Assembly: GCA_037893245.1 (NCBI GenBank)
Contig: JBAIAA010000117.1
Span: 3,720,001-3,784,000, forward strand
DNA: 64,000 nt
Source of the DNA: Crossaster papposus
Taxonomy: Eukaryota; Echinodermata; Asteroidea; Velatida; Solasteridae
Direction of reading: 5' to 3'
Part shown: piece by piece, positions 11,481-35,000 of the stretch
Layout of the letters: each line of letters starts with the position of its first letter
Numbering within the stretch: position 1 is the first letter of the stretch
Position numbers and translations under genes: made by a program
The notes under the pieces: model-generated
Databases searched by the model: none
What the model saw: only the letters and a program-made list of their open reading frames with translations
What the model was told of the DNA's origin: nothing

Positions 11481-14400
11481 GAGCAGAATAGTGAGTGTTC
11501 CTATCACAATGCGACTGTGAGAGCAGTCACTGTGCAGAGCAGAATAGTGAGTGTTCCCATCACAGCTGTGACTAAGAGCTGTCACTGTGCTGAGCAGAAT
11601 AGTGAGTGTTCACATCACTGTGTGACTGAGAGTAGTCACTGTGCTGAGCAGAATAGTGAGTGTTCCCATCACAGTGTGACCGAGAGCTGTCAATATGCTG
11701 AGCAGAATAGTTAGTGTTCACATCACAGTGTGACCGAGAGCTCTCACTGTGCTGAGCAGAATAGTGAGTGTTCCCATCACAGTGTGACTGAGAGCAGTCA
11801 CTGTGCTGAGCAGAATAGTGAGTGTTCCCATCACAATGTGACTGAGAGCTGTCACTGTGCTGAACAGAATAGTGAGTGTTCCCATCACAGTGTGACTGAA
11901 AGCTGTCAATGTGCTGAGCAGAATAGTTAGTGTTCACATCACAGTGTGACCGAGAGCTCTCACAGTGCTGAGCATCAGAGTGAGTGTTCCCATCACAGTG
12001 TGACTGAGAGCAGTCACTGTGCTGAGCAAAATAGTAAGTGTTCCCATCACAGTGTGACTAAGAGCTGTCACTGTGCTAAGCAGAATAGTGAGTGTTCCGA
12101 TCACAGTGTGACTGTGAGAGCAGTCACTATGCTGAGCAGAATAGTAATTGTTTCCATCACAGTGTAACTGAGAGCTGTCATTGTACTGAGCAGAATAGTG
12201 GGTGTTCCCATCACAGTGTTACTGAGAGCAGTCACTGTGCTGAGCAGAATAGTGAGTGTTCCCATCACAGTGTGACTTTGAGAGCATTCACTGTCCAGAG
12301 CAGAATAGTGAGTGTGACTTTGAGAGCAGTCACTGTGCTGGGCAGAATAGTGAGTGTTCTTATCACAGTGTGACTGAGAGCAGTCAATGTGCTGAACAGA
12401 ATAGTGAGTGTTCCCATCACAGTGTGACTTAGAGCAGTCACTGTGCTGAGCAGAATAGTGAGTGTTCCTATCACAATGCGACTGTGAGAGCAGTCACTGT
12501 GCAGAGCAGAATAGTGAGTGTTCCCATCACAACTGTGACTAAGAGCTGTCACTGTGCTGAACAGAATAGTGAGTGTTCACATCACTGTGTGACTGAGAGC
12601 AGTCACTGTGCTGAGCAGAATAGTGAGTGTTCCCATCACAGTGTGACTGAGAGCAGTCATTGTGCTGAGCAGAATAGTGAGTGTTTCCATCACAGTGTGA
12701 CCGAGAGCTGTCAATATGCTGAGCAGAATAGTTAGTGTTCACATCACAGTGTGACCGAGAGCTCTCACTGTGCTGAGCAGAATAGTGAGTGTTCCCATCA
12801 CAGTGTGACTGAGAGCAGTCACTGTGCTGAGCAGATTAGTGAGTGTTTCCATCACAGTGCGACTGTGAGAGCATTCAATGTGCAGAGCAGAATAGTGAGT
12901 GTTCCCATCACAGTGTGACTGAGAGCTGTCAGAGTGCTGAGCAGAATAGTGAGTGTTCCCATCACAGTGTGACTGAAACAGTCACTGTGCTGAGCAGAAT
13001 AGTGAATGTTCCCGCCACAGTGTGACTGAGAGCAGTCACTGTGCTGAGCAGAACAGTGAGTGTTCCCATCACAGTGTGACCGAGAGCTCTCACTGTGCTG
13101 AGCAGCAGAGTGAGTGTTCCCATCACAGTGTGACTGAGAGCAGTCACTGTGCTGAGCAAAATAGTGAGTGTTCCCATCACAGTGTGACTTTGAGAGCATT
13201 CACTGTCCAGAGCAGAATAGTGAGTGTGACTTTGAGAGCAGTCACTGTGCTGGGCAGAATAGTGAGTGTTCTTATCACAGTGTGACTGAGAGCAGTCAAT
13301 GTGCAGAACAGAATAGTGAGTGTTCCCATCACAGTGTGACTTAGAGCAGTCACTGTGCTGAGCAGAATAGTGAGTGTTCCTATCACAATGCGACTGTGAG
13401 AGCAGTCACTGTGCAGAGCAGAATAGTGAGTGTTCCCATCACAGCTGTGACTAAGAGCTGTCACTGTGCTGAGCAGAATAGTGAGTGTTCACATCACTGT
13501 GTGACTGAGAGCAGTCACTGTGCTGAGCAGAATAGTGAGTGTTCCCATCACAGTGTGACCGAGAGCTGTCAATATGCTGAGCAGAATAGTTAGTGTTCAC
13601 ATCACAGTGTGACCGAGAGCTCTCACTGTGCTGAGCAGAATAGTGAGTGTTCCCATCACAGTGTGACTGAGAGCAGTCACTGTGCTGAGCAGAATAGTGA
13701 GTGTTCCCATCACAATGTGACTGAGAGCTGTCACTGTGCTGAACAGAATAGTGAGTGTTCCCATCACAGTGTGACTGAAAGCTGTCAATGTGCTGAGCAG
13801 AATAGTTAGTGTTCACATCACAGTGTGACCGAGAGCTCTCACAGTGCTGAGCATCAGAGTGAGTGTTCCCATCACAGTGTGACTGAGAGCAGTCACTGTG
13901 CTGAGCAAAATAGTAAGTGTTCCCATCACAGTGTGACTGAGAGCTGTCACTGTGCTAAGCAGAATAGTGAGTGTTCCGATCACAGTGTGACTGTGAGAGC
14001 AGTCACTATGCTGAGCAGAATAGTAAATGTTTCCATCACAGTGTAACTGAGAGCTGTCATTGTACTGAGCAGAATAGTGGGTGTTCCCATCACAGTGTTA
14101 CTGAGAGCAGTCACTGTGCTGAGCAGAATAGTGAGTGTTCCCATCACAGTGTGACTTTGAGAGCATTCACTGTCCAGAGCAGAATAGTGAGTGTGACTTT
14201 GAGAGCAGTCACTGTGCTGGGCAGAATAGTGAGTGTTCTTATCACAGTGTGACTGAGAGCAGTCAATGTGCTGAACAGAATAGTGAGTGTTCCCATCACA
14301 GTGTGACTTAGAGCAGTCACTGTGCTGAGCAGAATAGTGAGTGTTCCTATCACAATGCGACTGTGAGAGCAGTCACTGTGCAGAGCAGAATAGTGAGTGT

Positions 14401-14621
14401 TCCCATCACAGCTGTGACTAAGAGCTGTCACTGTGCTGAGCAGAATAGTGAGTGTTCACATCACTGTGTGACTGAGAGCAGTCACTGTGCTGAGCAGAAT
14501 AGTGAGTGTTCCCATCACAGTGTGACTGAGAGCAGTCATTGTGCTGAGCAGAATAGTGAGTGTTCCCATCACAGTGTGACCGAGAGCTGTCAATATGCTG
14601 AGCAGAATAGTTAGTGTTCAC
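10964..14621. repeat. Tandem pair of a 1,879-bp higher-order unit
   Basis: Offsets of 1,879 bp connect 10,964/12,843, 11,143/13,022, 11,946/13,825 and 12,484/14,363. Each unit holds two 40-bp short monomers, 967 and 912 bp apart. The unit recurs at 17,000-20,000 and at about 52,500-55,400, so it is a favoured amplification unit. Confidence 0.8.
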
Positions 14622-16959
14622 ATCACAGTGTGACCGAGAGCTCTCACTGTGCTGAGCAGAATAGTGAGTGTTCCCATCACAGTGTGACTGAGAGCAGTCA
14701 CTGTGCTGAGCAGAATAGTGAGTGTTCCAATCACAGTATGGCTAAGAGCAGTCACTGTGCTGAGCAGAATAGTGAGTGTTCCCATCACAGTGTGACTGAA
14801 ACAGTCACTGTGCTGAGCAGAATAGTGAATGTTCCCGCCACAGTGTGACTGAGAGCAGTCACTGTGCTGAGCAGAACAGTGAGTGTTCCCATCACAGTGT
14901 GACCGAGAACTCTCACTGTGCTGAGCAGCAGAGTGAGTGTTCCCATCACAGTGTGACTGAGAGCAGTCACTGTGCTGAGCAAAATAGTGAGTGTTCCCAT
15001 CACAGTGTGACTTTGAGAGCATTCACTGTCCAGAGCAGAATAGTGAGTGTGACTTTGAGAGCAGTCACTGTGCTGGGCAGAATAGTGAGTGTTCTTATCA
15101 CAGTGTGACTGAGAGCAGTCAATGTGCTGAACAGAATAGTGAGTGTTCCCATCACAGTGTGACTTGAAGCAGTCACTGTGCTGAGCAGAATAGTGAGTGT
15201 TCCTATCACAATGTGACTGTGAGAGCAGTCACTGTACAGAGCAGAATAGTGAGTGTTCCCATCACAGCTGTGACTAAGAGCTGTCACTGTGCTGAGCAGA
15301 ATAGTGAGTGTTCACATCACTGTGTGACTGTGAGAGCAGTCACTATGCTGAGCAGAATAGTAATTGTTTCCATCACAGTGTAACTGAGAGCTGTCATTGT
15401 ACTGAGCAGAATAGTGGGTGTTCCCATCACAGTGTTACTGAGAGCAGTCACTGTGCTGAGCAGAATAGTGAGTGTTCCCATCACAGTGTGACTGTGAGAG
15501 CATTCACTGTGCTGAGCAGAATAGTGAGTGTTCCCGTCACAGTGTGACTGAGAGCTCTCAATGTGCTGAGCAGAATAGTGAGTGTTCCCATCACAGTGTG
15601 ACTGCGAGCAGTCACTATGCTTAGCAGAATAGTAAGTGTTTCTATCACAGTGTGACTGAGAGCTGTCATTGTGCTGATCAGAATAATGGGTGTTGCCATC
15701 ACAGTGTGACTTAGAGCTCTCACTTTGCTGAGCAGAATAGTGAGTGTTCCCATTACAGTGTTACCGAGAGCAGTCACTCTGCTTAGCAGAATGTTAAGTG
15801 TTTCTATCACAGTGTGACTGAGAGCTGTCATTGTGCTGAGCAGAATAATGGGTGTTCCCATCACAGTGTGACTTAGAGCTCTCACTTTGCTGAGCAGAAT
15901 AGTGAGTGTTCCCATTACAGTGTCACCAAGAGCAGTCAATCTGCTTAGCAGAATAGTGAGTGTTCCCATCACAGTGTTACTGAGAGCAGTCACTGTGCTG
16001 AGCATAATAGTGAGTGTTCCCATCACAGTGTGACTGAGAGCTGTCACTGTGCTGAGCAGAATAGTGAGTGTTCACATCAATGTGTGACTGAAAGCAGTCA
16101 CTGTGCTGAGCAGAATAGTGAGTGTTCCCATCACAGTGTGACTGAGAGCAGTCACTGTACAGAGCAGAATATTAAGTGTTTTCATCACAGTGCGACTGTC
16201 AGAGCAGTCACTGTGCTGAGCAGAATAGTGAATGTTCCCGCCACAGTGTGACTGAGAGCAGTCACTGTGCTGAGCAGAATAGTGAGTGTTCCCATCACAG
16301 TGTGACTGCGAGAGCATTCACTGTGCAGAGCAGAATAGTGAGTGTTCCCATCACAGTGTGACTGAGAGCTGTCAGTGTGCTGAGCAGAATAGTGAGTGTT
16401 CACATCACTGTGTGACTGAGAGCAGTCACTGTGCTGAGCAGAATAGTGAGTGTTCCCATCACAGTGTGACTGAGTGCAGTCACTTGGCTGATCAGAATAG
16501 TGAGTGTTTTCTTTACAGTGTGACTGTGAGAGCAGTCACTGTGCTGAGCAGAATAGTGAGTGTTCCAATCACAGTATGGCTAAGAGCAGTCACTGTGCTG
16601 AGCAGAATAGTGAGTGTTCCCATCACAGTGTGACTGAAACAGTCACTGTGCTGAGCTGAATAGTGAATGTTCCCGCCACAGTGTGACTGAGAGCAGTCAC
16701 TGTGCTGAGCAGAATAGTGAGTGTTCCCATCACAGTGTGACTGCGAGAGCATTCACTGTGCAGAGCAGAATAGTGAGTGTTCACATCACAGTGTAACTGA
16801 GAGCTGTCACTGTGCTGAGCAGAATAGTGAGTGTTCCCACCACAGTGTGACTGTGAAAGCAGTCACTGTGCTGAGCAGAATAGTAAGTGTTTCCATCACA
16901 GTGTGACTGTGAGAGCATTCACTGTGCAGAGCAGAATAGTGAGTGTTCCCATCACAGTG

Positions 16960-19900
16960 TGACTGAGAGCTGTCAGAGTGCTGAGCAGAATAGTGAGTGT
17001 TCCTATCACAGTGTGACTGAAACAGTCACTGTGCTGAGCAGAATAGTGAATGTTCCCGCCACAGTGTGACTGAGAGCAGTCACTGTGCTGAGCAGAACAG
17101 TGAGTGTTCCCATCACAGTGTGACCGAGAGCTCTCACTGTGCTGAGCAGCAGAGTGAGTGTTCCCATCACAGTGTGACTGAGAGCAGTCACTGTGCTGAG
17201 CAAAATAGTGAGTGTTCCCATCACAGTGTGACTTTGAGAGCATTCACTGTCCAGAGCAGAATAGTGAGTGTGACTTTGAGAGCAGTCACTGTGCTGGGCA
17301 GAATAGTGAGTGTTCTTATCACAGTGTGACTGAGAGCAGTCAATGTGCTGAACAGAATAGTGAGTGTTCCCATCACAGTGTGACTTAGAGCAGTCACTGT
17401 GCTGAGCAGAATAGTGAGTGTTCCTATCACAATGCGACTGTGAGAGCAGTCACTGTGCAGAGCAGAATAGTGAGTGTTCCCATCACAGCTGTGACTAAGA
17501 GCTGTCACTGTGCTGAGCAGAATAGTGAGTGTTCACATCACTGTGTGACTGAGAGCAGTCACTGTGCTGAGCAGAATAGTGAGTGTTCCCATCACAGTGT
17601 GACCGAGAGCTGTCAATATGCTAAGCAGAATAGTTAGTGTTCACATCACAGTGTGACCGAGAGCTCTCACTGTGCTGAGCAGAATAGTGAGTGTTCCCAT
17701 CACAGTGTGACTGAGAGCAGTCACTGTGCTGAGCAGAATAGTGAGTGTTCCCATCACAATGTGACTGAGAGCTGTCACTGTGCTGAACAGAATAGTGAGT
17801 GTTCCCATCACAGTGTGACTGAAAGCTGTCAATGTGCTGAGCAGAATAGTTAGTGTTCACATCACAGTGTGACCGAGAGCTCTCACAGTGCTGAGCATCA
17901 GAGTGAGTGTTCCCATCACAGTGTGACTGAGAGCAGTCACTGTGCTGAGCAAAATAGTAAGTGTTCCCATCACAGTGTGACTAAGAGCTGTCACTGTGCT
18001 AAGCAGAATAGTGAGTGTTCCGATCACAGTGTGACTGTGAGAGCAGTCACTATGCTGAGCAGAATAGTAATTGTTTCCATCACAGTGTAACTGAGAGCTG
18101 TCATTGTACTGAGCAGAATAGTGGGTGTTCCCATCACAGTGTTACTGAGAGCAGTCACTGTGCTGAGCAGAATAGTGAGTGTTCCCATCACAGTGTGACT
18201 TTGAGAGCATTCACTGTCCAGAGCAGAATAGTGAGTGTGACTTTGAGAGCAGTCACTGTGCTGGGCAGAATAGTGAATGTTCTTATCACAGTGTGACTGA
18301 GAGCAGTCAATGTGCTGAACAGAATAGTGAGTGTTCCCATCACAGTGTGACTTAGAGCAGTCACTGTGCTGAGCAGAATAGTGAGTGTTCCTATCACAAT
18401 GCGACTGTGAGAGCAGTCACTGTGCAGAGCAGAATAGTAAGTGTTCCCATCACAGCTGTGACTAAGAGCTGTCACTGTGCTGAACAGAATAGTGAGTGTT
18501 CACATCACTGTGTGACTGAGAGCAGTCACTGTGCTGAGCAGAATAGTGAGTGTTCCCATCACAGTGTGACTGAGAGCAGTCATTGTGCTGAGCAGAATAG
18601 TGAGTGTTCCCATCACAGTGTGACCGAGAGCTGTCAATATGCTGAGCAGAATAGTTAGTGTTCACATCACAGTGTGACCGAGAGCTCTCACTGTGCTGAG
18701 CAGAATAGTGAGTGTTCCCATCACAGTGTGACTGAGAGCAGTCACTGTGCTGAGCAGATTAGTGAGTGTTTCCATCACAGTGCGACTGTGAGAGCATTCA
18801 ATGTGCAGAGCAGAATAGTGAGTGTTCCCATCACAGTGTGACTGAGAGCTGTCAGAGTGCTGAGCAGAATAGTGAGTGTTCCCATCACAGTGTGACTGAA
18901 ACAGTCACTGTGCTGAGCAGAATAGTGAATGTTCCCGCCACAGTGTGACTGAGAGCAGTCACTGTGCTGAGCAGAACAGTGAGTGTTCCCATCACAGTGT
19001 GACCGAGAGCTCTCACTGTGCTGAGCAGCAGAGTGAGTGTTCCCATCACAGTGTGACTGAGAGCAGTCACTGTGCTGAGCAAAATAGTGAGTGTTCCCAT
19101 CACAGTGTGACTTTGAGAGCATTCACTGTCCAGAGCAGAATAGTGAGTGTGACTTTGAGAGCAGTCACTGTGCTGGGCAGAATAGTGAGTGTTCTTATCA
19201 CAGTGTGACTGAGAGCAGTCAATGTGCTGAACAGAATAGTGAGTGTTCCCATCACAGTGTGACTTAGAGCAGTCACTGTGCTGAGCAGAATAGTGAGTGT
19301 TCCTATCACAATGCGACTATGAGAGCAGTCACTGTGCAGAGCAGAATAGTGAGTGTTCCCATCACAGCTGTGACTAAGAGCTGTCACTGTGCTGAGCAGA
19401 AGAGTGAGTGTTCACATCACTGTGTGACTGAGAGCAGTCACTGTGCTGAGCAGAATAGTGAGTGTTCCCATCACAGTGTGACCGAGAGCTGTCAATATGC
19501 TGAGCAGAATAGTTAGTGTTCACATCACAGTGTGACCGAGAGCTCTCACTGTGCTGAGCAGAATAGTGAGTGTTCCCATCACAGTGTGACTGAGAGCAGT
19601 CACTGTGCTGAGCAGAATAGTGAGTGTTCCCATCACAATGTGACTGAGAGCTGTCACTGTGCTGAACAGAATAGTGAGTGTTCCCATCACAGTGTGACTG
19701 AAAGCTGTCAATGTGCTGAGCAGAATAGTTAGTGTTCACATCACAGTGTGACCGAGAGCTCTCACAGTGCTGAGTATCAGAGTGAGTGTTCCCATCACAG
19801 TGTGACTGAGAGCAGTCACTGTGCTGAGCAAAATAGTAAGTGTTCCCATCACAGTGTGACTGAGAGCTGTCACTGTGCTAAGCAGAATAGTGAGTGTTCC

Positions 19901-20250
19901 GATCACAGTGTGACTGTGAGAGCAGTCACTATGCTGAGCAGAATAGTAATTGTTTCCATCACAGTGTAACTGAGAGCTGTCATTGTATTGAGCAGAATAG
20001 TGGGTGTTCCCATCACAGTGTTACTGAGAGCAGTCACTGTACTGAGCAGAATAGTGAGTGTTCCCATCACAGTGTGACTTTGAGAGCATTCACTGTCCAG
20101 AGCAGAATAGTGAGTGTGACTTTGAGAGCAGTCACTGTGCTGGGCAGAATAGTGAGTGTTCTTATCACAGTGAGACTGAGAGCAGTCAATGTGCTGAACA
20201 GAATAGTGATTGTTCCCATCACAGTGTGACTTAGAGCAGTCACTGTGCTG
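16960..20250. repeat. Second tandem pair of the 1,879-bp unit
   Basis: Positions 17,066, 17,221, 17,440, 17,653 and 17,869 recur at 18,945, 19,100, 19,319, 19,532 and 19,748, a constant 1,879-bp shift. The unit matches that at 10,964-14,621 with offsets of 4,044 and 5,923 bp. Private substitutions, for example GAAGAGTGAG near 19,399, mark individual copies. Ends are approximate. Confidence 0.75.
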
Positions 20251-21321
20251 AGCAGAATAGTGAGTGTTCCTATCACAATGCGACTGTGAGAGCAGTCACT
20301 GTGCAGAGCAGAATAATGGGTGTTGCCATCACAGTGTGACTTAGAGCTCTCACTTTGCTGAGCAGAATAGTGAGTGTTCCCATTACAGTGTTACCGAGAG
20401 CAGTCACTCTGCTTAGCAGAATGTTAAGTGTTTCTATCACAGTGTGACTGAGAGCTGTCATTGTGCTGAGCAGAATAATGGGTGTTCCCATCACAGTGTG
20501 ACTTAGAGCTCTCACTTTGCTGAGCAGAATAGTGAGTGTTCCCATTACAGTGTCACCAAGAGCAGTCAATCTGCTTAGCAGAATAGTGAGTGTTCCCATC
20601 ACAGTGTGACTGAGAGCAGTCACTTGGCTGATCAGAATAGTGAGTGTTTTCTTTACAGTGTGACTGTGAGAGCAGTCACTGTGCTGAGCAGAATAGTGAA
20701 TGTTCCCGCCACAGTGTGACTGAGAGCAGTCACTGTGCTGAGCAGAATAGTGAGTGTTCCCATCACAGTGTGACTGCGAGAGCATTCACTGTGCAGAGCA
20801 GAATAGTGAGTGTTCCCATCACAGTGTGACTGAGAGCTGTCAGTGTGCTGAGCAGAATAGTGAGTGTTCACATCACTGTGTGACTGAGAGCAGTCACTGT
20901 GCTGAGCAGAATAGTGAGTGTTCCCATCACAGTGTGACTGCGAGAGCATTCACTGTGCAGAGCAGAATAGTGAGTGTTCCCATCACAGTGTGACTGAGAG
21001 CTGTCAGTGTGCTGAGCAGAATAGTGAGTGTTCACATCACTGTGTGACTGAGAGCAGTCACTGTGCTGAGCAGAATAGTGAGTGTTCCCATCACAGTGTG
21101 ACTGCGAGAGCATTCACTGTGCAGAGCAGAATAGTGAGTGTTCACATCACAGTGTAACTGAGAGCTGTCACTGTGCTGAGCAGAATAGTGAGTGTTCCCA
21201 CCACAGTGTGACTGTGAAAGCAGTCACTGTGCTGAGCAGAATAGTAAGTGTTTCCATCACAGTGTGACTGAGAGCTGTCAATGTGCTGAGCAGAATAGTG
21301 GGTGTTCCCATCACAGTGTGA

Positions 21322-21325
21322 CTTA
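21322..21325. repeat. Left target-site duplication CTTA
   Basis: The last satellite bases before the island are GTGACTTA, and the satellite resumes after the island with CTTAGAGCTC. The uninterrupted satellite reads GTGACTTAGAGCTC, for example at 40,358-40,371. CTTA is therefore present once in the empty site and twice around the island. Confidence 0.85.
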
Positions 21326-21360
21326 CACGGCTGTTTCACACGTTAATAAAGTGCGCCCTC
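21326..21360 (+). repeat. Left terminal inverted repeat of the island
   Basis: The outermost bases are CACGGC. TAATAAAGT lies at 21,344-21,352 and GCGCCCTC at 21,353-21,360. The same three words occur in the same order, reading inward, at the right end, with different spacing. This is an imperfect, indel-rich inverted repeat. Confidence 0.65.
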
Positions 21361-21665
21361 TGTCGTCAAAACTTTCCCGCGGCGTATATGACGTCATTGT
21401 GTTTATGCACGCGCGTTGTTTACGCGATAACCTTTGACCAAATACACAGCCATTCATAAAAACACCTATTGCAGGATCTTACAGGCATGTCATACATATT
21501 CATTGGGGTCACCATCATAAATAATAATTTATCTGACCCCACAAAGAATTTTCCAGACTGGTGCACTCCGTGAACTCCCCTTTGTGCTGATTCAATTGCG
21601 TGATCACATGGCTTTTAGAGGCGCGATAAAATTAACGGCTGTCGGAGAGACGGTTATTTTTATAA

Positions 21666-21741
21666 ATGAAAATGTATTACAAAGTCCTTCAAATTCTCAG
21701 TGAGGACACTTCAGATGTTGCTTTCTACAATAACACCAGTG
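21666..21741 (+). other. Possible short first coding exon (plus strand)
   Basis: ATG at 21,666, with a second in-frame ATG at 21,672, follows a TATAAA-like stretch (21,661-21,666). The frame gives MKMYYKVLQILSEDT and about ten more residues up to a strong donor, G|GTAAGT, at 21,742-21,747. If unspliced, the frame stops within about ten codons. No matching downstream exon was found and I do not recognise the peptide. It points toward the minus-strand gene, so the two would be convergent. It may be a relic or chance. Confidence 0.2.
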
Positions 21742-22288
21742 GTAAGTGCAGGACATTTTGATTTGGTTGAGGACAAGTTGGGGTGAAAATGAGCAAGAAA
21801 TTCCGTTGCTCGCGTGTACGTTTGCCCCCAAATCATAAACACGCACACCGTGTATGTACGTAACATGTACATGTGTTTGGGGCGAGATTGCACCGCGCGC
21901 GGTACGTGCACACAACGGTTATAATTTAAAGGTCCAAACGCATGGCGTTCGTACTGCTGGGTATTACTGGGCCTAAAATACGTTGTTGCATGGACATGGT
22001 TCATCTATAAAATTCATTTCGTGGTCTGTAAACGTTAGGCCTATTCTGTATTCAGCACGAAAGATCAATAACATTAAAAATAACATGTTAAACTTTCAAG
22101 AATACACATTGGCCATTGCATTTAAAATTGTTAAAATGTTACTGTTACTAGTAAAAACTAAAATGAAATGGGTCAACTTGTGTACGAGTTTATCTAGTCT
22201 ACGAGTACGACTAGGAGTACGGGAATAGGGACATCATGTATGTAGTTAACTTTTATCATAAATACCCGAGTTTAACTACCATACTAGT

Positions 22289-22341
22289 TTTGAGAATTGA
22301 GATCATCTTATAAATTTTATGAGATGATCTCAATTCTCAAA
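22289..22341. repeat. Near-perfect 53-nt palindrome (hairpin)
   Basis: The left arm 22,289-22,308 (TTTGAGAATTGAGATCATCT) is exactly complementary to the right arm 22,322-22,341. The 13 nt between them also pair in part: ATAAA with TTTAT, leaving about one unpaired base and one T-G pair. It lies outside coding sequence in the island. Confidence 0.95.
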
Positions 22342-22493
22342 TCGTAAACAAATTAAAAAACTGTAGGCCTAAGGCTAAGCCTTGTACTTTTGTACAGTAC
22401 AGGCCAAATGTACGACATTGTAAAAACAACAACAATTGCAAGTGAGAAAGGAATTGTTTATACATTGTACAATAAATGTACATGTATATTTTT

Positions 22494-22499
22494 TTTATT
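22494..22499 (-). terminator. Candidate poly(A) signal of the RAG1-N-like gene
   Basis: The minus strand reads AATAAA here, about 220 nt downstream of the TAA at 22,722-22,720. Position and hexamer fit a 3' end signal. Nothing else supports it, and other A/T-rich hexamers occur nearby. Confidence 0.35.
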
Positions 22500-22719
22500 T
22501 ATGATGTCATGGTTGCAACACATAACTTATTAACTTAACTCATAAGCAAGAAGTAAAGAATTGTCATCCTGGTCATGCTACCTTAAACTGCGGAAGCGTA
22601 TTAAATACACTTGCAGAGTACAGATACATGTACATGATGAAAAAAGTACATTTGCATAGTCATGACTTGCATGTAAAAGGGCTCAAGCAAGATAATGGCT
22701 TTATATTTTGTTTGCCGAA

Positions 22720-24359
22720 TTATATTAATTTCCTCATTTGGTTCCAACCCAGGTGGCAGTCTTGCATCATGGCTAAAGCACCATCAGCAGTTGAAGTTGT
22801 GTGGTGGTTGGTCTGTGACGAACTGGATGGCAGACACTGGTTTTCATCGTCCTGCTGGATTTCGGGAGCTCCTTTGCTGATATTTTGCCGGAAAGCTGCT
22901 ATTGCAACAGTTCGTTGTCTCTTGTATGAGGTGGAGATATTTTTACTTGACTTTGATGGCTTAGTCACCTTTTGAATATGAGCAGGCTGGGAGAAAAATG
23001 ATGCATTAAAAAAACAATTGGTTTTTTTAAACGAGACAGACCTGATCCTTCCTCGATCACTCTAAATGTCATGTGTTTTGAAATTTTAAAATGGAATGAA
23101 CTCGACTAAAGTCTAAAGTAAACAGAAGGAAAAAAAGTGAAATGAAATAATATTCATAAAATAAAATATTAATGAAATTTAATATTTACGAAATAAAATG
23201 GTATGCGATATTGTGTTACCTTATACAGTATCTTGAAATCATGTTAATTTATGTGTAAGGTAATGCCCATGTGTGTACTTACTCGACCTCCAGTTCGTAT
23301 GGGTGTGGCCATTCCTGGCTGGGCATTTTGAAGCTTGAGCCACACCCACTTGTCAGTGGCCTCTTCGATTTCAGTGGGAATCGGTTTGCCAGATTCGTGC
23401 GTTTGAGCCAGACGTTTGAGTAAACGGGCCGCATTGGTTGGGTTTAGAATTTCAGGCTGCTCTTTCATTGGGCTTACTGGCCATTGTGATGAAGAGGCAA
23501 CGGATGAGTGTTTAGCGAACTTAACTTGACAGTCGTGATGCAGTAATCGTTGAACTTTGCCAATATCGTTACACCTGGTACAGATTACATTCAGGTTTTC
23601 CAGCTGAAACCTGAGAACCCTGGGACTTTCAGTTACATCTTGAAATCTGATTTTTTGATTGCATATGGGGCAGTTTATTACTTCATTTGTTGCATACCTG
23701 TAACACAGTGTCAAACATCTTGCACAGTAATTGTGTTGGCATGGTGTTTGTACACAAGGTTGTCCAATGATGCAAAGGCAAATTCCACATGTGAAGAGTG
23801 ACTGCTCCCAATCATGACCAATGATGTCAAATTCGACGGGGTATTCAATTTCAAAAGTGTCCGTTTTCACAGTTACATGCTGGAAGATGTTTCCTTCAAT
23901 CAGTGAAAAGGGGAGAGGAGGAGAGGGGCTGCGACTTTGTGAAGCTTTTGGTCTGCCACGCTTAGGTTTGCACTGTACATGTGATCCTGCTGAAATTTGT
24001 TCATTGTACAAATCACAGACGAAACAGTGGCCAGTTCTTGTATGCTTTGGCCAAGTTCTTTGAATAGGCTGCGTTCTACTCAAAGTGCTCAGAGTGTAAC
24101 ACCTCGTATCACTTCTACAGTGCCTTAATTTTCTGCAGCACTTTTCGCACAAATTTGATGGATGCTGATCCACACTGTCCTCCCAGGTACTTATTTCATA
24201 GATGCTAAACAACTCCTTTCTGTACTCACGCACTAATGATATTTTACTCCTGCTTCCACGAAGAGTAATTTTAATTCTGTTCGCACAAACTCTGCAGATC
24301 TTTCCGAGTGCGTCTTGGTGGAATTTAAAACTCATGACACTGATAAAACTTTGAATCAT
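22720..24359 (-). CDS. RAG1-like N-terminal (non-core) zinc-finger protein, two exons
   Basis: Exon 1 is 24,359-23,283 (359 aa) and exon 2 is 22,986-22,720 (88 aa plus TAA). They join in phase 0. Residues counted from the first Met: C22-X2-C25, C71-X2-C74 and C112-X2-C115 match the spaced Cys pairs of the RAG1 N-terminal region, including the HPSNLCEKC segment. An AT-hook-like KRGRPK lies at 133-138. A complete C3HC4 RING is C191, C194, C207, H209, C212, C215, C230, C233. A finger follows (C260, C263, H274/H275, C277), preceded by ESPRVLRFQLENLNV as in RAG1. The splice restores GGRP (357-360), which opens the RAG1 nonamer-binding region. GALAMMQDCHLGWNQMRKLI near the C-terminus resembles the early dimerisation/DNA-binding helix. 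RAG1 N-termini act as E3 ligase and dimerisation modules. The DDE core is missing. The second Met (24,335) has the better start context. Truncated transposon gene or domain-only relative: unresolved. Confidence 0.8.
22987..23282 (-). other. 296-bp GT-AG intron of the RAG1-N-like gene
   Basis: Minus-strand donor CGA|GTAAGT (23,282-23,277) is a full consensus. The acceptor TTTTTCTCCCAG|CCT ends at 22,987 after a pyrimidine-rich tract. Both sites are phase 0. Reading through the donor instead gives only 12 more codons before a stop. Splicing extends the protein by 88 aa and creates the conserved GGRP across the junction. Confidence 0.75.
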
Positions 24360-25045
24360 CCATGTACTTTATATAACGCTTACTAAAACTTAAGAATAAC
24401 CCTCTTGAGAGAGAACAAAAAATTTCGCCTAGTGTGGTTTTTGGGAGCAACCGGTGAGACAACTCGACCGCGCGACACGCAATACCGCACACTACACGCT
24501 GTACACAGTCGAGTTGTCCCACATTGCGTTGTTTTGTATTGCCCGCCGTTTCCGATTGTATCGCTGGTATCCGCCAACGAGCGCGCTAACTTAATGCGTC
24601 GATGGGAGCCAACACGGGACGACGTGTGAACGTCCGCGCGAATTTGGATTTGCGGGGTTCCGGGGCACATTTAACAAGGCTAAACAAACTATTTAACAAA
24701 ATGTCCCACATTTTTATATATTATAAACGTATAGTAAATGTCATTAACTTTACTGGTATGAATTTATACCGAAGGATTGAACTTTGTTTTGTTTTTACGA
24801 GTCATTTTCAAGAGCCGATAATTATTTAACGAACGTTACGACCGATGCAATAATGCATCCAAAAGTCCTCAAAATCTGTTCTGTGTAAATATTATGCATA
24901 TGCACGAGTGAAAAGTCTGTTCATTGTTAAGCTTTTATAATTTAAACTGTTTTTTAAAGTCCTTGTTACGTTTTTTATCAATTTTTACATTGTAATTAGG
25001 CGACCCTGGGCGCCGCCATCTTTGATTGGATTTTAAAAAACTATT
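24360..25045 (-). promoter_or_regulatory. Right arm of the island: likely promoter and CpG-rich region
   Basis: The minus strand reads TTATATAAAG at 24,376-24,367, a good TATA box. A start site 25-30 nt further on would fall near 24,340, just before the second in-frame ATG at 24,335. Upstream, about 24,420-24,680 is rich in CpG, including GACAACTCGAC at 24,458-24,468 facing its complement at 24,508-24,518. Further out, 24,690-25,045 is A/T-rich with no gene visible. Open frames here on either strand are short and unrecognisable. Confidence 0.45.
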
Positions 25046-25110
25046 GAGGGCGCTGCAGCGAGCGCTCTTTACTTTATTAGCACATATCCTATGCGCGCGG
25101 ATATGCCGTG
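25046..25110 (-). repeat. Right terminal inverted repeat of the island
   Basis: Read inward from 25,110 on the minus strand: CACGGC at the tip, TAATAAAGT at 25,079-25,071 and GCGCCCTC at 25,053-25,046, the same words in the same order as at the left end. It is 30 bp longer than its partner. Confidence 0.65.
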
Positions 25111-25114
25111 CTTA
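25111..25114. repeat. Right target-site duplication CTTA
   Basis: CTTA immediately follows GCCGTG and continues into GAGCTCTCACTTTGCTGAG, the continuation of the interrupted satellite monomer. Confidence 0.85.
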
Positions 25115-27379
25115 GAGCTCTCACTTTGCTGAGCAGAATAGTGAGTGTTCCCATTACAGTGTTACCGAGAGCAGTCACTCTGCTGAGCAGAATAGTGAGT
25201 GTTTCCATCACAGTGCGACTGTGAGAGCATTCACTGTGCAGAGCAGAATAGTGAGTGTTCCCATCACAGTGTGACTGAGAGCTGTCAGTGTGCTGAGCAG
25301 AATAGTGAGTGTTCACATCACTGTGTGACTGAGAGCAGTCACTGTGCTGAGCAGAATAGTGAGTGTTCCCATCACAGTGTGACTGAGAGCAGTCACTTGG
25401 CTGATCAGAATAGTGAGTGTTTTCTTTACAATGTGACTGTGAGAGCAGTCACTGTGCTGAGCAGATTAGTGAGTGTTCCAATCACAGTATGGCTAAGAGC
25501 AGTCACTGTGCTGAGCAGAATAGTGAGTGTTCCCATCACAGTGTGACTGAAACAGTCACTGTGCTGAGCAGAATAGTGAATGTTCCCGCCACAGTGTGAC
25601 TGAGAGCAGTCACTGTGCTGAGCAGAACAGTGAGTGTTCCCATCACAGTGTAACCGAGAGCTCTCACTGTGCTATGCAGCAGAGTGAGTGTTCCCATCAC
25701 AGTGTGACTGAGAGCAGTCACTATGCTGAGCAGAATAGTAATTGTTTCCATCACAGTGTAACTGAGAGCTGTCATTGTACTGAGCAGAATAGTGGGTGTT
25801 CCCATCACAGTGTTACTGAGAGCAGTCACTGTGCTGAGCAGAATAGTGAGTGTTCCCATCACAGTGTGACTTTGAGAGCATTCACTGTCCAGAGCAGAAT
25901 AGTGAGTGTGACTTTGAGAGCAGTCACTGTGCTGGGCAGAATAGTGAGTGTTCTTATCACAGTGTGACTGAGAGCAGTCAATGTGCTGAACAGAATAGTG
26001 AGTGTTCCCATCACAGTGTGACTTAGAGCAGTCACTGTGCTGAGCAGAATAGTGAGTGTTCATATCACAATGCGACTGTGAGAACAGTCACTGTGCAGAG
26101 CAGAATAGTGAGTGTTCCCATCACAGCTGTGACTAAGAGCTGTCACTGTGCTGAGCAGAATAGTGAGTGTTCACATCACTGTGTGACTGAGAGCAGTCAC
26201 TGTGCAGAGCAGAATAGTGAGTGTTCCCATCACAGTGTGACTGAGAGCTGTCAGTGTGCTGAGCAGAATAGTGAGTGTTCACATCACTGTGTGACTGAGA
26301 GCAGTCACTGTGCTGAGCAGAATAGTGAGTGTTCCCATCACAGTGTGACTGAGAGCAGTCACTTGGCTGATCAGAATAGTGAGTGTTTTCTTTACAGTGT
26401 GACTGTGAGAGCAGTCACTGTGCTGAGCAGAATAGTGAGTGTTCCAATCACAGTATGGCTAAAAGCAGTCACTGTGCTGAGCAGAATAGTGAGTGTTCCC
26501 ATCACAGTGTGACTGAAACAGTCACTGTGCTGAGCTGAATAGTGAATGTTCCCGCCACAGTGTGACTGAGAGCAGTCACTGTGCTGAGCAGAATAGTGAG
26601 TGTTGCCATCACAGTGTGACTGCGAGAGCATTCACTGTGCAGAGCAGAATAGTGAGTGTTCACATCACAGTGTAACTGAGAGCTGTCACTGTGCTGAGCA
26701 GAATAGTGAGTGTTGCCACCACAGTGTGACTGTGAAAGCAGTCACTGTGCTGAGCAGAATAGTAAGTGTTTCCATCACAGTGTGACTGAGAGCTGTCAAT
26801 GTGCTGAGCAGAATAGTGGGTGTTCCCATCACAGTGTGACTTAGAGCTCTCACTTTGCTGAGCAGAATAGTGAGTGTTCCCATTACAGTGTTACCGAGAG
26901 CAGTCACTCTGCTGAGCAGAATAGTGAGTGTTTCCATCACAGTGCGACTGTGAGAGCATTCACTGTGCAGAGCAGAATAGTGAGTGTTCCCATCACAGTG
27001 TGACTGAGAGCTGTCAGAGTGCTGAGCAGAATAGTGAGTGTTCCCATCACAGCTGTGACTAAGAGCTGTCACTGTGCTGAGCAGAATAGTGAGTGTTCAC
27101 ATCACTGTGTGACTGAGAGCAGTCACTGTGCTGAGCAGAATAGTGAGTGTTCCCATCACAGTGTGACCGAGAGCTGTCAATATGCTGAGCAGAATAGTTA
27201 GTGTTCACATCACAGTGTGACCGAGAGCTCTCACTGTGCTGAGCAGAATAGTGAGTGTTCCCATCACAGTGTGACTGAGAGCAGTCACTGTGCTGAGCAA
27301 AATAGTGAGTGTTCCCATCACAGTGTGACTGAGAGCTGTCAATATGCTGAGGAGAATAGTTAGTGTTCACATCACAGTG

Positions 27380-30300
27380 TGACCGAGAGCTCTCACTGTG
27401 CTGAGCAGAATAGTGAGTGTTCCCATCACAGTGTGACTGAGAGCAGTCACTTGGCTGATCAGAATAGTGAGTGTTTTCTTTACAGTGTGACTGTGAGAGC
27501 AGTCACTGTGCTGAGCAGAATAGTGAGTGTTCCAATCACAGTATGGCTAAGAGCTGTCACTGTGCTGAGCAGAATAGTGAGTGTTCACATCACTGTGTGA
27601 CTGAGAGCAGTCACTGTGCTGAGTTGAATAGTGAATGTTCCCGCCACAGTGTGACTGAGAGCAGTCACTGTGCTGAGCAGAATAGTGAGTGTTCCCATCA
27701 CAGTGTGACTGCGAGAGCATTCACTGTGCAGAGCAGAATAGTTAGTGTTCACATCACAGTGTGACCGAGAGCTCTCACTGTGCTGAGCAGAATAGTGAGT
27801 GTTCCCATCACTGTGTGACTGAGAGCAGTCACTGTGCTGAGCAGAATAGTGAGTGTTCCCATCACAGTGTGACTGAGAGCAGTCATTGTGCTGAGCAGAA
27901 TAGTGAGTGTTCCCATCACAGTGTGACCGAGAGCTGTCAATATGCTGAGCAGAATAGTTAGTGTTCACATCACAGTGTGACCGAGAGCTCTCACTGTGCT
28001 GAGCAGAATAGTGAGTGTTCCCATCACAGTGTGACTGAGAGCAGTCACTGTGCTGAGCAGATTAGTGAGTGTTTCCATCACAGTGCGACTGTGAGAGCAT
28101 TCAATGTGCAGAGCAGAATAGTGAGTGTTCCCATCACAGTGTGACTGAAACAGTCACTGTGCTGAGCAGAATAGTGAATGTTCCCGCCACAGTGTGACTG
28201 AGAGCAGTCACTGTGCTGAGCAGAACAGTGAGTGTTCCCATCACAGTGTGACCGAGAGCTCTCACTGTGCTGAGCAGCAGAGTGAGTGTTCCCATCACAG
28301 TGTGACTGAGAGCAGTCACTGTGCTGAGCAAAATAGTGAGTGTTCCCATCACAGTGTGACTTTGAGAGCATTCACTGTCCAGAGCAGAATAGTGAGTGTG
28401 ACTTTGAGAGCAGTCACTGTGCTGGGCAGAATAGTGAGTGTTCTTATCACAGTGTGACTGAGAGCAGTCAATGTGCTGAACAGAATAGTGAGTGTTCCCA
28501 TCACAGTGTGACTTAGAGCAGTCACTGTGCTGAGCAGAATAGTGAGTGTTCCTATCACAATGCGACTGTGAGAGCAGTCACTGTGCAGAGCAGAATAGTG
28601 AGTGTTCCCATCACAGCTGTGACTGAGAGCTGTCAGTGTGCTGAGCAGAATAGTGAGTGTTCACATCACTGTGTGACTGAGAGCAGTCACTGTGCTGAGC
28701 AGAATAGTGAGTGTTCCCATCACAGTGTGACTGCGAGAGCATTCACTGTGCAGAGCAGAATAGTGAGTGTTCACATCACAGTGTAACTGAGAGCTGTCAC
28801 TGTGCTGAGCAGAATAGTGAGTGTTCCCACCACAGTGTGACTGTGAAAGCAGTCACTGTGCTGAGCAGAATAGTAAGTGTTTCCATCACAGTGTGACTGA
28901 GAGCTGTCAATGTGCTGAGCAGAATAGTGGGTGTTCCCATCACAGTGTGACTTAGAGCTCTCACTTTGCTGAGCAGAATAGTGAGTGTTCCCATTACAGT
29001 GTTACCGAGAGCAGTCACTCTGCTGAGCAGAATAGTGAGTGTTTCCATCACAGTGCGACTGTGAGAGCATTCACTGTGCAGAGCAGAATAGTGAGTGTTC
29101 CCATCACAGTGTGACTGAGAGCTGTCAGTGTGCTGAGCAGAATAGTGAGTGTTCACATCACTGTGTGACTGAGAGCAGTCACTGTGCTGAGCAGAATAGT
29201 GAGTGTTCCCATCACAGTGTGACTGAGAGCAGTCACTTGGCTGATCAGAATAGTGAGTGTTTTCTTTACAATGTGACTGTGAGAGCAGTCACTGTGCTGA
29301 GCAGATTAGTGAGTGTTCCAATCACAGTATGGCTAAGAGCAGTCACTGTGCTGAGCAGAATAGTGAGTGTTCCCATCACAGTGTGACTGAAACAGTCACT
29401 GTGCTGAGCAGAATAGTGAATGTTCCCGCCACAGTGTGACTGAGAGCAGTCACTGTGCTGAGCAGAACAGTAAGTGTTCCCATCACAGTGTAACCGAGAG
29501 CTCTCACTGTGCTGAGCAGAATAGTGAGTGTTCCCATCACAGTGTGACTGAGAGCAGTCACTTGGCTGATCAGAATAGTGAGTGTTTTCTTTACAGTGTG
29601 AATGTGAGAGCAGTCACTGTGCTGAGCAGAATAGTGAGTGTTCCAATCACAGTATGGCTAAGAGCTGTCACTGTGCTGAGCAGAATAGTGAGTGTTCACA
29701 TCACTGTGTGACTGAGAGCAGTCACTGTGCTGAGCAGAATAGTGAGTGTTCCCATCACAGTGTGACTGAGAGCAGTCACTTGGCTGATCAGAATAGTGAG
29801 TGTTTTCTTTACAATGTGACTGTGAGAGCAGTCACTGTGCTGAGCAGATTAGTGAGTGTTCCAATCACAGTATGGCTAAGAGCAGTCACTGTGCTGAGCA
29901 GAATAGTGAGTGTTCCCATCACAGTGTGACTGAAACAGTCACTGTGCTGAGCAGAATAGTGAATGTTCCCGCCACAGTGTGACTGAGAGCAGTCACTGTG
30001 CTGAGCAGAACAGTGAGTGTTCCCATCACAGTGTAACCGAGAGCTCTCACTGTGCTGAGCAGAATAGTGAGTGTTCCCATCACAGTGTGACTGAGAGCAG
30101 TCACTTGGCTGATCAGAATAGTGAGTGTTTTCTTTACAGTGTGACTGTGAGAGCAGTCACTGTGCTGAGCAGAATAGTGAGTGTTCCAATCACAGTATGG
30201 CTAAGAGCTGTCACTGTGCTGAGCAGAATAGTGAGTGTTCACATCACTGTGTGACTGAGAGCAGTCACTGTGCTGAGTTGAATAGTGAATGTTCCCGCCA

Positions 30301-32070
30301 CAGTGTGACTGAGAGCAGTCACTGTGCTGAGCAGAATAGTGAGTGTTCCCATCACAGTGTGACTGCGAGAGCATTCACTGTGCAGAGCAGAATAGTTAGT
30401 GTTCACATCACAGTGTGACCGAGAGCTCTCACTGTGCTGAGCAGAATAGTGAGTGTTCCCATCACTGTGTGACTGAGAGCAGTCACTGTGCTGAGCAGAA
30501 TAGTGAGTGTTCCCATCACAGTGTGACTGAGAGCAGTCATTGTGCTGAGCAGAATAGTGAGTGTTCCCATCACAGTGTGACCGAGAGCTGTCAATATGCT
30601 GAGCAGAATAGTTAGTGTTCACATCACAGTGTGACCGAGAGCTCTCACTGTGCTGAGCAGAATAGTGAGTGTTCCCATCACAGTGTGACTGAGAGCAGTC
30701 ACTGTGCTGAGCAGATTAGTGAGTGTTTCCATCACAGTGCGACTGTGAGAGCATTCAATGTGCAGAGCAGAATAGTGAGTGTTCCCATCACAGTGTGACT
30801 GAAACAGTCACTGTGCTGAGCAGAATAGTGAATGTTCCCGCCACAGTGTGACTGAGAGCAGTCACTGTGCTGAGCAGAACAGTGAGTGTTCCCATCACAG
30901 TGTGACCGAGAGCTCTCACTGTGCTGAGCAGCAGAGTGAGTGTTCCCATCACAGTGTGACTGAGAGCAGTCACTGTGCTGAGCAAAATAGTGAGTGTTCC
31001 CATCACAGTGTGACTTTGAGAGCATTCACTGTCCAGAGCAGAATAGTGAGTGTGACTTTGAGAGCAGTCACTGTGCTGGGCAGAATAGTGAGTGTTCTTA
31101 TCACAGTGTGACTGAGAGCAGTCAATGTGCTGAACAGAATAGTGAGTGTTCCCATCACAGTGTGACTTAGAGCAGTCACTGTGCTGAGCAGAATAGTGAG
31201 TGTTCCTATCACAATGCGACTGTGAGAGCAGTCACTGTGCAGAGCAGAATAGTGAGTGTTCCCATCACAGCTGTGACTGAGAGCTGTCAGTGTGCTGAGC
31301 AGAATAGTGAGTGTTCACATCACTGTGTGACTGAGAGCAGTCACTGTGCTGAGCAGAATAGTGAGTGTTTCCATCACAGTGTGACTGCGAGAGCATTCAC
31401 TGTGCAGAGCAGAATAGTGAGTGTTCACATCACAGTGTAACTGAGAGCTGTCACTGTGCTGAGCAGAATAGTGAGTGTTCCCACCACAGTGTGACTGTGA
31501 AAGCAGTCACTGTGCTAAGCAGAATAGTAAGTGTTTCCATCACAGTGTGACTGAGAGCTGTCAATGTGCTGAGCAGAATAGTGGGTGTTCCCATCACAGT
31601 GTGACTTAGAGCTCTCACTTTGCTGAGCAGAATAGTGAGTGTTCCCATTACAGTGTTACCGAGAGCAGTCACTCTGCTGAGCAGAATAGTGAGTGTTTCC
31701 ATCACAGTGCGACTGTGAGAGCATTCACTGTGCAGAGCAGAATAGTGAGTGTTCCCATCACAGTGTGACTGAGAGCTGTCAGTGTGCTGAGCAGAATAGT
31801 GAGTGTTCACATCACTGTGTGACTGAGAGCAGTCACTGTGCTGAGCAGAATAGTGAGTGTTCCCATCACAGTGTGACTGAGAGCAGTCACTTGGCTGATC
31901 AGAATAGTGAGTGTTTTCTTTACAATGTGACTGTGAGAGCAGTCACTGTGCTGAGCAGATTAGTGAGTGTTCCAATCACAGTATGGCTAAGAGCAGTCAC
32001 TGTGCTGAGCAGAATAGTGAGTGTTCCCATCACAGTGTGACTGAAACAGTCACTGTGCTGAGCAGAATAG
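27380..32070. repeat. Tandem pair of a 2,654-bp higher-order unit
   Basis: Positions 27,471, 27,749, 28,078, 28,797 and 29,039 recur at 30,125, 30,403, 30,732, 31,451 and 31,693, a constant 2,654-bp shift. Inside it, about 29,257-29,580 recurs 543 bp downstream (29,257/29,800; 29,436/29,979), a smaller nested duplication. Ends are approximate. Confidence 0.75.
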
Positions 32071-35000
32071 TGAATGTTCCCGCCACAGTGTGACTGAGAG
32101 CAGTCACTGTGCTGAGCAGAACAGTGAGTGTTCCCATCACAGTGTAACCGAGAGCTCTCACTGTGCTATGCAGCAGAGTGAGTGTTCCCATCACAGTGTG
32201 ACTGAGAGCAGTCACTATGCTGAGCAGAATAGTAATTGTTTCCATCACAGTGTAACTGAGAGCTGTCATTGTACTGAGCAGAATAGTGGGTGTTCCCATC
32301 ACAGTGTTACTGAGAGCAGTCACTGTGCTGAGCAGAATAGTGAGTGTTCCCATCACAGTGTGACTTTGAGAGCATTCACTGTCCAGAGCAGAATAGTGAG
32401 TGTGACTTTGAGAGCAGTCACTGTGCTGGGCAGAATAGTGAGTGTTCTTATCACAGTGTGACTGAGAGCAGTCAATGTGCTGAACAGAATAGTGAGTGTT
32501 CCCATCACAGTGTGACTTAGAGCAGTCACTGTGCTGAGCAGAATAGTGAGTGTTCATATCACAATGCGACTGTGAGAGCAGTCACTGTGCAGAGCAGAAT
32601 AGTGAGTGTTCCCATCACAGCTGTGACTAAGAGCTGTCACTGTGCTGAGCAGAATAGTGAGTGTTCACATCACTGTGTGACTGAGAGCAGTCACTGTGCA
32701 GAGCAGAATAGTGAGTGTTCCCATCACAGTGTGACTGAGAGCTGTCAGTGTGCTGAGCAGAATAGTGAGTGTTCACATCACTGTGTGACTGAGAGCAGTC
32801 ACTGTGCTGAGCAGAATAGTGAGTGTTCCCATCACAGTGTGACTGAGAGCAGTCACTTGGCTGATCAGAATAGTGAGTGTTTTCTTTACAGTGTGACTGT
32901 GAGAGCAGTCACTGTGCTGAGCAGAATAGTGAGTGTTCCAATCACAGTATGGCTAAAAGCAGTCACTGTGCTGAGCAGAATAGTGAGTGTTCCCATCACA
33001 GTGTGACTGAAACAGTCACTGTGCTGAGCTGAATAGTGAATGTTCCCGCCACAGTGTGACTGAGAGCAGTCACTGTGCTGAGCAGAATAGTGAGTGTTCC
33101 CATCACAGTGTGACTGCGAGAGCATTCACTGTGCAGAGCAGAATAGTGAGTGTTCACATCACAGTGTAACTGAGAGCTGTCACTGTGCTGAGCAGAATAG
33201 TGAGTGTTGCCACCACAGTGTGACTGTGAAAGCAGTCACTGTGCTGAGCAGAATAGTAAGTGTTTCCATCACAGTGTGACTGAGAGCTGTCAATGTGCTG
33301 AGCAGAATAGTGGGTGTTCCCATCACAGTGTGACTTAGAGCTCTCACTTTGCTGAGCAGAATAGTGAGTGTTCCCATTACAGTGTTACCGAGAGCAGTCA
33401 CTCTGCTGAGCAGAATAGTGAGTGTTTCCATCACAGTGCGACTGTGAGAGCATTCACTGTGCAGAGCAGAATAGTGAGTGTTCCCATCACAGTGTGACTG
33501 AGAGCTGTCAGAGTGCTGAGCAGAATAGTGAGTGTTCCCATCACAGCTGTGACTAAGAGCTGTCACTGTGCTGAGCAGAATAGTGAGTGTTCACATCACT
33601 GTGTGACTGAGAGCAGTCACTGTGCTGAGCAGAATAGTGAGTGTTCCCATCACAGTGTGACCGAGAGCTGTCAATATGCTGAGCAGAATAGTTAGTGTTC
33701 ACATCACAGTGTGACCGAGAGCTCTCACTGTGCTGAGCAGAATAGTGAGTGTTCCCATCACAGTGTGACTGAGAGCTCTCACTGTGCTGAGCAGCAGAGT
33801 GAGTGTTCCCATCACAGTGTGACTGAGAGCAGTCACTGTGCTGAGCAAAATAGTGAGTGTTCCCATCACAGTGTGACTGAGAGCTGTCAATATGCTGAGG
33901 AGAATAGTTAGTGTTCACATCACAGTGTGACCGAGAGCTCTCACTGTGCTGAGCAGAATAGTGAGTGTTCCCATCACAGTGTGACTGAGAGAGCATTCAC
34001 TGTGCAGAGCAGAATAGTGAGTGTTCACATCACAGTGTAACTGAGAGCTGTCACTGTGCTGAGCAGAATAGTGAGTGTTCCCACCACAGTGTGACTGTGA
34101 AAGCAGTCACTGTGCTAAGCAGAATAGTAAGTGTTTCCATCACAGTGTGACTGAGAGCTGTCAATGTGCTGAGCAGAATAGTGGGTGTTCCCATCACAGT
34201 GTGACTTAGAGCTCTCACTTTGCTGAGCAGAATAGTGAGTGTTCCCATTACAGTGTTACCGAGAGCAGTCACTCTGCTGAGCAGAATAGTGAGTGTTTCC
34301 ATCACAGTGCGACTGTGAGAGCATTCACTGTGCAGAGCAGAATAGTGAGTGTTCCCATCACAGTGTGACTGAGAGCTGTCAGTGTGCTGAGCAGAATAGT
34401 GAGTGTTCACATCACTGTGTGACTGAGAGCAGTCACTGTGCTGAGCAGAATAGTGAGTGTTCCCATCACAGTGTGACTGAGAGCAGTCACTTGGCTGATC
34501 AGAATAGTGAGTGTTTTCTTTACAATGTGACTGTGAGAGCAGTCACTGTGCTGAGCAGATTAGTGAGTGTTCCAATCACAGTATGGCTAAGAGCAGTCAC
34601 TGTGCTGAGCAGAATAGTGAGTGTTCCCATCACAGTGTGACTGAAACAGTCACTGTGCTGAGCAGAATAGTGAATGTTCCCGCCACAGTGTGACTGAGAG
34701 CAGTCACTGTGCTGAGCAGAACAGTGAGTGTTCCCATCACAGTGTAACCGAGAGCTCTCACTGTGCTATGCAGCAGAGTGAGTGTTCCCATCACAGTGTG
34801 ACTGAGAGCAGTCACTATGCTGAGCAGAATAGTAATTGTTTCCATCACAGTGTAACTGAGAGCTGTCATTGTACTGAGCAGAATAGTGGGTGTTCCCATC
34901 ACAGTGTTACTGAGAGCAGTCACTGTGCTGAGCAGAATAGTGAGTGTTCCCATCACAGTGTGACTTTGAGAGCATTCACTGTCCAGAGCAGAATAGTGAG

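Follow-up and report, generated by a model that had tools for sequence, protein, structure and literature searches.

The window, the whole 64-kb stretch of DNA analyzed here, contains a minus-strand gene (positions 24359 to 22720) that lies within a complete transposon copy. This element very probably derives by internal deletion from a Chapaev (CMC group) transposon, is non-autonomous, and lies where it inserted in a satellite array; full-length relatives would move it in trans. It has defined termini, flanking duplications and an empty site, a full-length relative, and counterparts with the same deletion at other sites, while its gene is homologous to the N-terminal region of RAG1 and retains a conserved splice junction. 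In the history that we propose, a Chapaev cut-and-paste element would have inserted into the array with a 4-bp duplication. Its gene would represent exons 1 and 2 of a Chapaev transposase, encoding a Chapa-type zinc region and a RING with homology to the N-terminal third of RAG1, and the catalytic exons (the DUF1280/DDE core) would have been lost by internal deletion. The transposase of full-length relatives may then act on the retained ends and move the deleted element in trans; the truncated protein, if made, would have no transposase activity of its own. All coordinates are collected in Table 1.

TABLE 1 Features of the transposon copy, its gene, and the surrounding satellite in the window
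Feature	Positions	Strand	Remarks
54-bp satellite array, left of insertion	1..21321	.	Repeat analysis
Target-site duplication CTTA, left	21322..21325	.	Ends and flanks compared
Chapaev-type transposon copy, complete, non-autonomous	21326..25110	-	3785 bp, CACGGC...GCCGTG; same ends in copies elsewhere
3' terminal inverted repeat CACGGC	21326..21331	+	Subterminal TAATAAAGT further in
3' part of element retained	21326..22726	-	Comparison with full-length copy
Exon 2	22720..22986	-	Ends just short of the normal end; final codons and stop supplied from beyond the deletion junction
Internal deletion junction	22726..22728	-	2960 bp missing (full-length coordinates 2379-5338)
Intron	22987..23282	-	Phase 0, GT-AG, directly after TGGR; position conserved across the family
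Exon 1	23283..24359	-	359 codons; Chapa-type Cys/His region, RING, finger; ends TGGR
Cys/His finger past RING, residues 260-277	23529..23582	-	C260-x2-C263...H275/C277
C3HC4 RING, residues 191-233	23661..23789	-	Ligand spacing and family alignment
Three Cys pairs, C22/C25, C71/C74, C112/C115	24015..24296	-	RAG1 N-terminal / Chapa region
5' terminal inverted repeat CACGGC	25105..25110	-	Subterminal TAATAAAGT further in
Target-site duplication CTTA, right	25111..25114	.	Empty site gtgaCTTAgagc in other satellite units
54-bp satellite array, right of insertion	25115..64000	.	Repeat analysis

A transposon copy within a satellite array

The original prediction described the gene as sitting alone inside a satellite. 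The satellite is indeed present on both sides of the insertion and fills the rest of the window, but the gene does not stand alone: it belongs to a transposon copy with exact ends, CTTA duplications, and an empty site, and in full-length copies it is accompanied by catalytic exons. Each transposon end occurs once in the window. The uninterrupted site gtgaCTTAgagc, with a single CTTA, is found in three other satellite units, near positions 31605, 34205, and 40362; the flanks of the first two are 99.9% (right) and 90% (left) identical to those of the insertion, and the flanks of the third are 98.7% (left) and 94.9% (right) identical. The inverted repeats are short, and the two ends align best over the subterminal TAATAAAGT, with a local score that was reached in 41 of 2,000 shuffles. 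This alignment test is weak; the case for a transposon rests on the shared ends and the duplications. Published hallmarks of Chapaev comprise a target-site duplication of 3 to 4 bp, CAC/GTG ends, and the C(2)C, LH, and H(4)H motifs (PMC4079192). The window copy has the CAC...GTG ends and a 4-bp duplication, and the DUF1280 core is found in its full-length relatives and is absent from the copy itself.

The satellite has a higher-order organization of its own, with stretches of about 1 kb that are 98.7 to 99.9% identical at distant places. The two insertion flanks have different best partners (39363-40365 for the left, 31601 and 34201 for the right), and the array has thus undergone reshuffling. 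A nearly identical 162-bp non-satellite block recurs in three units (41301-41462, 44312-44473, and 59550-59711), which suggests that the array grew by the copying of many-unit blocks. Within the 3' part of the element lies a 26-bp palindrome (22289-22341) whose arms are 96% complementary around a 1-base loop.

Gene structure and the conserved splice junction

From the ATG at 24359 to a TAA stop, the spliced gene encodes 447 amino acids. The Cys pairs, C3HC4 RING, finger, donor, acceptor, and TGGR-PAHIQK reading of the original prediction are all present as given. The RING follows the pattern C191-x2-C194-x12-C207-x-H209-x2-C212-x2-C215-x14-C230-x2-C233. In an alignment of 12 family members that includes the window protein (A1), every member keeps the cysteines of pairs 2 and 3 as well as the eight RING ligands, and pair 1 is almost as constant, with that stretch missing from L023. 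The invariance of pairs 2 and 3 and of the RING ligands indicates that the Cys/His anatomy is more than chance. A structure predicted for exon 1 from its sequence alone was unusable (mean pLDDT 32.5, pTM 0.21, 331 of 359 residues below 50).

The donor is CGA/GTAAGT (the slash marks the exon boundary; GT at 23282-23281) and the acceptor is CTCCCAG/CCT (AG at 22988-22987), and the spliced window gene reads ...TGGR/PAHIQK in phase 0. Among 15 copies of the family, 13 (L013 and L015-L026) have a GT donor directly after [GP]GR, two of these (L015 and L022) with frameshifts; in L028 the GT donor follows GAL instead, and none was assigned in L027. The acceptor yields GR/P[AT]x[IV][QH] in L013, L016, L017, L019, L024, L025, and L026 (the last with its frame open) and GGR/RTYIQ in L020, L021, and L023. 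Exon 2 of L018 is broken, and no exon 2 was identified for L027 or L028 when the splice junctions of the copies were read. A junction of the TGGR/PAHIQ type is kept in relatives that are about 40% identical. The predicted phase-0 join is thus borne out by the conservation of intron position and phase across the family, from which we infer that the junction of the window gene is in use.

Kinship with the N-terminal region of RAG1

Searching the PDB with a profile of the 12 family members returned RAG1 residues 101-380 as the best match (E 5.8e-19, 71.8 bits; the chain is given by molecule name alone, and we take it to be mouse), against 38.2 bits for the best non-RAG1 RING. The alignment is co-linear over the Cys-pair region, the RING, and the finger, and the RAG1 chain 21wb_A was matched outside the RING (3.1e-8). 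Since the best PDB match of the family profile is to residues 101-380, the kinship reaches beyond the RING, and on this profile evidence the window gene is a true relative of the RAG1 N-terminal region, as originally proposed. Queried alone, the window protein is weak evidence for this: it matched BRCA1 first in the PDB, with RAG1 at 1.2e-4 over the RING and finger only, and in Pfam it gave RING matches, all below threshold.

The Pfam model RAG1_imp_bd matched 4 of the 12 members of A1 (best 1.8e-4), the window copy not among them. Across the whole genome it gave 49 matches at E up to 10 (best 8.6e-5), none of them in the window's own subfamily, and it gave none in any of 14 control genomes. 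Of these 49 matches, 24 fall in the exon-1 family; 28 are followed on the same strand, no more than 6 kb away, by a DUF1280 match; and 18, scoring 14.4 to 21.9 bits, are in neither set. The loci of this genome that are most similar to vertebrate RAG1-N by Pfam (L029-L032, on C616, C630, C117:2901849, and C545) have a DUF1280 match 1.5 to 3 kb downstream and represent another Chapaev subgroup, whose RING region is about 26 to 28% identical to that of the window gene.

Likeness to vertebrate RAG1 is confined to residues of about 100 to 380, where Cys pairs, RING, and finger are co-linear; for the nonamer-binding region and the core, no sequence homology was detectable in the window family. The Chapaev core profile matched no RAG1 chain in the PDB. 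The RAG1 core model PF12940 gave six weak matches across the genome (E 0.01 to 0.1), none at family loci, and because all are weak, strong RAG1L core genes are not seen in this genome. These six matches (L033-L038, on C59, C466, C52, and C669) are possibly Transib transposases.

The original prediction also equated the motif restored by splicing with the GGRP signature of the RAG1 nonamer-binding region, and this equation is not supported by the comparisons made here. Of the 10 copies in which the motif was read, 7 have GGRP or PGRP and the other 3 (L020, L021, and L023) have GGRR, so that its P is replaced in one subfamily. A profile of the GGRP region and the next exon found no RAG1 in the PDB, only unrelated weak matches. 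The RAG1 match of the family profiles ends at residue 380-381, and adding exon 2 to the N-terminal profile did not carry the alignment past residue 381. Moreover, about 80 residues separate the finger from GGR in the window protein, compared with a short link, presumably of roughly 15 residues, in RAG1.

Full-length relatives and the family in the genome

The genome that contains the window (1.02 Gb in 1841 contigs) holds at least 98 exon-1 matches, which merge to at least 74 loci. A full-length copy of 6,755 bp on contig C152 has the same CAC...GTG ends and a TAAC duplication; its identity to the window copy is 99.5% through base 2,378 and 97.8% in the final part. It holds 2,960 internal bases (2379-5338) that are absent from the window copy, and further exons lie there. 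Another copy (L014, on C293; match 3058-8901, with L039) is near-full-length, its 3' end falling about 140 bp short of the element end.

Thirteen divergent copies (L016-L028), whose exon 1 is 24 to 47% identical, carry downstream transposase exons in the same order, with all seven core pieces in L016-L026, five in L027, and three in L028, whose examined sequence ends soon after. Pfam DUF1280 was matched by all eight core sequences, one per chosen copy (best 5.7e-21). Genome-wide, DUF1280 has 104 matches; among the 74 family loci listed, 52 are followed by such a match on the same strand at a distance of up to 6 kb and 22 are not, where the chance expectation is roughly estimated at 0.0003 per locus. 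An alignment of the core (A2) contains CCxYC, LH, and H-x4-H motifs, and the Asp of GGDxGG and the Glu of EQGGE are invariant; the assignment of these residues as catalytic is our own. A putative second Asp (DHV) occurs in L013, L017, L018, L020, L024, and L026, is not found in L025 or L027, and is Asn in L014.

Both ends were read in 13 copies of the window subfamily, and all 13 have CACGGC...GCCGTG with perfect 4-bp duplications, at 12 distinct sites. This count covers the window subfamily, takes C653 and C1255 as one site, and leaves out C293 (3' end cut), C613, C630, C549, C209, and C117:4280248. A search with the 5' end of the element gave 21 matches at 20 places, the one on C751 at 75%. 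Searches of viral contigs, prokaryote genomes, and plasmids confirmed no relatives, and an NCBIfam search gave nothing useful. Beside the copy on C282, the host sequence of the 3' flank (L043) begins with taacgtgtgaaa, which equals 12 bases of the element's own 3' subterminal stretch and is perhaps an older element end at the target. The COX1 gene on the mitochondrial contig C1841 (L056) has AAA where Asn, and ATA where Ile, would presumably be usual, together with TGA for Trp and AGA for Ser, a pattern that fits the echinoderm (also flatworm) mitochondrial code and makes an echinoderm the probable host.

Internal deletions and the spread of the short form

Within the window's subfamily (at least 85% identity), and among the matches listed, DUF1280 is present at 5 loci (partially on C613) and lacking at 14, including the window; this count omits a 24-amino-acid fragment on C209, certain pairs of loci may be alleles of a single site, and C630, counted among those that lack DUF1280, keeps other core parts. 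In full-length coordinates, the deletion 2379-5338 is shared by the window and six further contig copies. Others span 2399-5414 in C332, 2617-5817 in C117:1192050, 2809-5886 in C871 and C641 (different sites), 1242-4876 in C79, and 1929-3217, with others, in C630, and C613 breaks after 3008.

The six copies that share the exact window junction (C282, C409, C431, C653, C1255, and C188) occupy five sites with duplications of their own. Over 1,400 aligned bases, each differs from the window copy by two mismatches, and all lack the same 30 bp and 11 bp of exon 1, so that the reading frame is broken. A mobile element whose one protein is RAG1-N-like is represented by the window copy, its siblings being frame-broken or carrying other deletions. 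Because the short element spreads without an intact protein, mobilization is best placed in trans, and the deletion form probably moves in this way.

Alternative explanations

The short form might instead be kept because its Chapa-RING protein is a trans-acting regulator, either a repressor or a RING ubiquitin ligase that targets the transposase; truncated P-element proteins act as repressors. Of six deletion classes that were mapped, four begin either within the final few bases of exon 2 (2379) or beyond it (2399, 2617, and 2809); these four spare nearly all of exons 1 and 2, which C613, mapped on one side, keeps as well. Exon 1 is open in the window, C332, C117:1192050, C871, and C641, and 19 of the 20 places with a 5' end adjoin an exon-1 match, one of them (C209) 24 amino acids long. 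The remaining classes, however, start at 1242 and 1929, and the pattern of breakpoints is not statistically telling. Ratios of pN/pS between divergent copies, 0.42 to 0.57 in seven pairs with pS saturated, favor this reading but include full-length copies. Against it, the most multiplied class, found in six contig copies (five sites) in addition to the window, is frame-broken by the 30-bp and 11-bp losses, so that spread does not need the protein. We regard a regulatory role as improbable.

Still less probable is an origin in the opposite direction, with the N-terminal gene being an independent transposon like Aplysia N-RAG-TP, which has been reported to consist of nothing but RAG1-N-like sequence (PMC8355894), and with full-length Chapaev copies arising by its fusion to a separate transposase. 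All 13 divergent copies (L016-L028) have the same exon order and the transposase exons, so that the joined head-core form is the older. The mapped short forms, in a mapping that covered the window's subfamily, all belong to that subfamily and differ in their breakpoints. These observations make such a fusion very unlikely. An intact reading frame and a conserved RAG1-N match could also mark a stand-alone host gene or a RAG1L-family locus, the least credible of the readings considered. Exact transposon ends, duplications, an empty site, and near-identical copies at many sites speak against it, as do the catalytic exons of the full-length copies and the placement of all weak PF12940 matches at other loci, and we rejected it. 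A deletion derivative of Chapaev is the reading that we retain.

Relation to known elements and implications

P and Ac/Ds elements with internal deletions of the transposase gene keep their ends and move in trans. The window element is alike in its lost transposase interior, retained ends, and probable movement in trans, and differs in belonging to another superfamily. A Chapa and RING head on a Chapaev transposase is already published: the Chapa domain was named after Chapaev transposons of lancelet and sea anemone, two Chapaev subgroups add a RING as in RAG1, and the RAG1L of echinoderm TransibSU is described there as having no RING (Kapitonov and Koonin 2015, PMC4411706). The window family resembles those Chapaev elements in having a Chapaev transposase headed by a Chapa-type zinc region and then a RING, and Chapaev as described in PMC4079192 in its CAC...GTG ends and duplication length; the window copy differs in having no catalytic exons, and its host has an echinoderm-type mitochondrial code and is thus probably not a lancelet or sea anemone. 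DUF1280 proteins have been equated with Chapaev transposases and grouped in a single clade with RAG1 (PMC3985635). Amphioxus RAG1L of the ProtoRAG group shares the likeness, with Cys regions C1-C3 and a RING-type ZDD that are also found in molluscs (PMC7204232). Transib and RAG transposons, in contrast, have 5-bp duplications and a RAG1 core, where the window family has 4 bp and a Chapaev core. Going by its published description, Aplysia N-RAG-TP is similar in being a mobile element whose gene is RAG1-N-like only (PMC8355894). Our literature search, which extended to sources other than subscription journals and Repbase, found no paper that derives RAG1-N-only elements from Chapaev by deletion.

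Two views of the RAG1 N-terminal third have been put forward, that it was kept from an ancestral Chapa-RING transposase (PMC4411706) or that it was taken from an N-RAG transposon (PMC8355894). Here, a RAG1-N-only element occurs alongside its parent: one genome contains Chapaev copies of full length, a number of deletion classes, and short forms at various sites. Deletion within Chapaev points to a way in which standalone RAG1-N elements, Aplysia N-RAG-TP for example, could arise, and it offers a concrete and testable route to them. More tentatively, RAG1-N-only transposons in general, Aplysia N-RAG-TP and the present forms included, may have arisen from RING-bearing Chapaev by internal deletion and move as short units, a generalization that we consider possible but doubtful. 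A lone "RAG1-N gene" in an invertebrate genome should be treated with caution, as it may be a Chapaev remnant. If the generalization is true, it would replace the idea of an independent N-RAG transposon of unexplained origin, and a Transib-type core could readily have acquired the RAG1 N-terminal region from a short unit of this kind, with its conserved intron in a GGRP-type motif.
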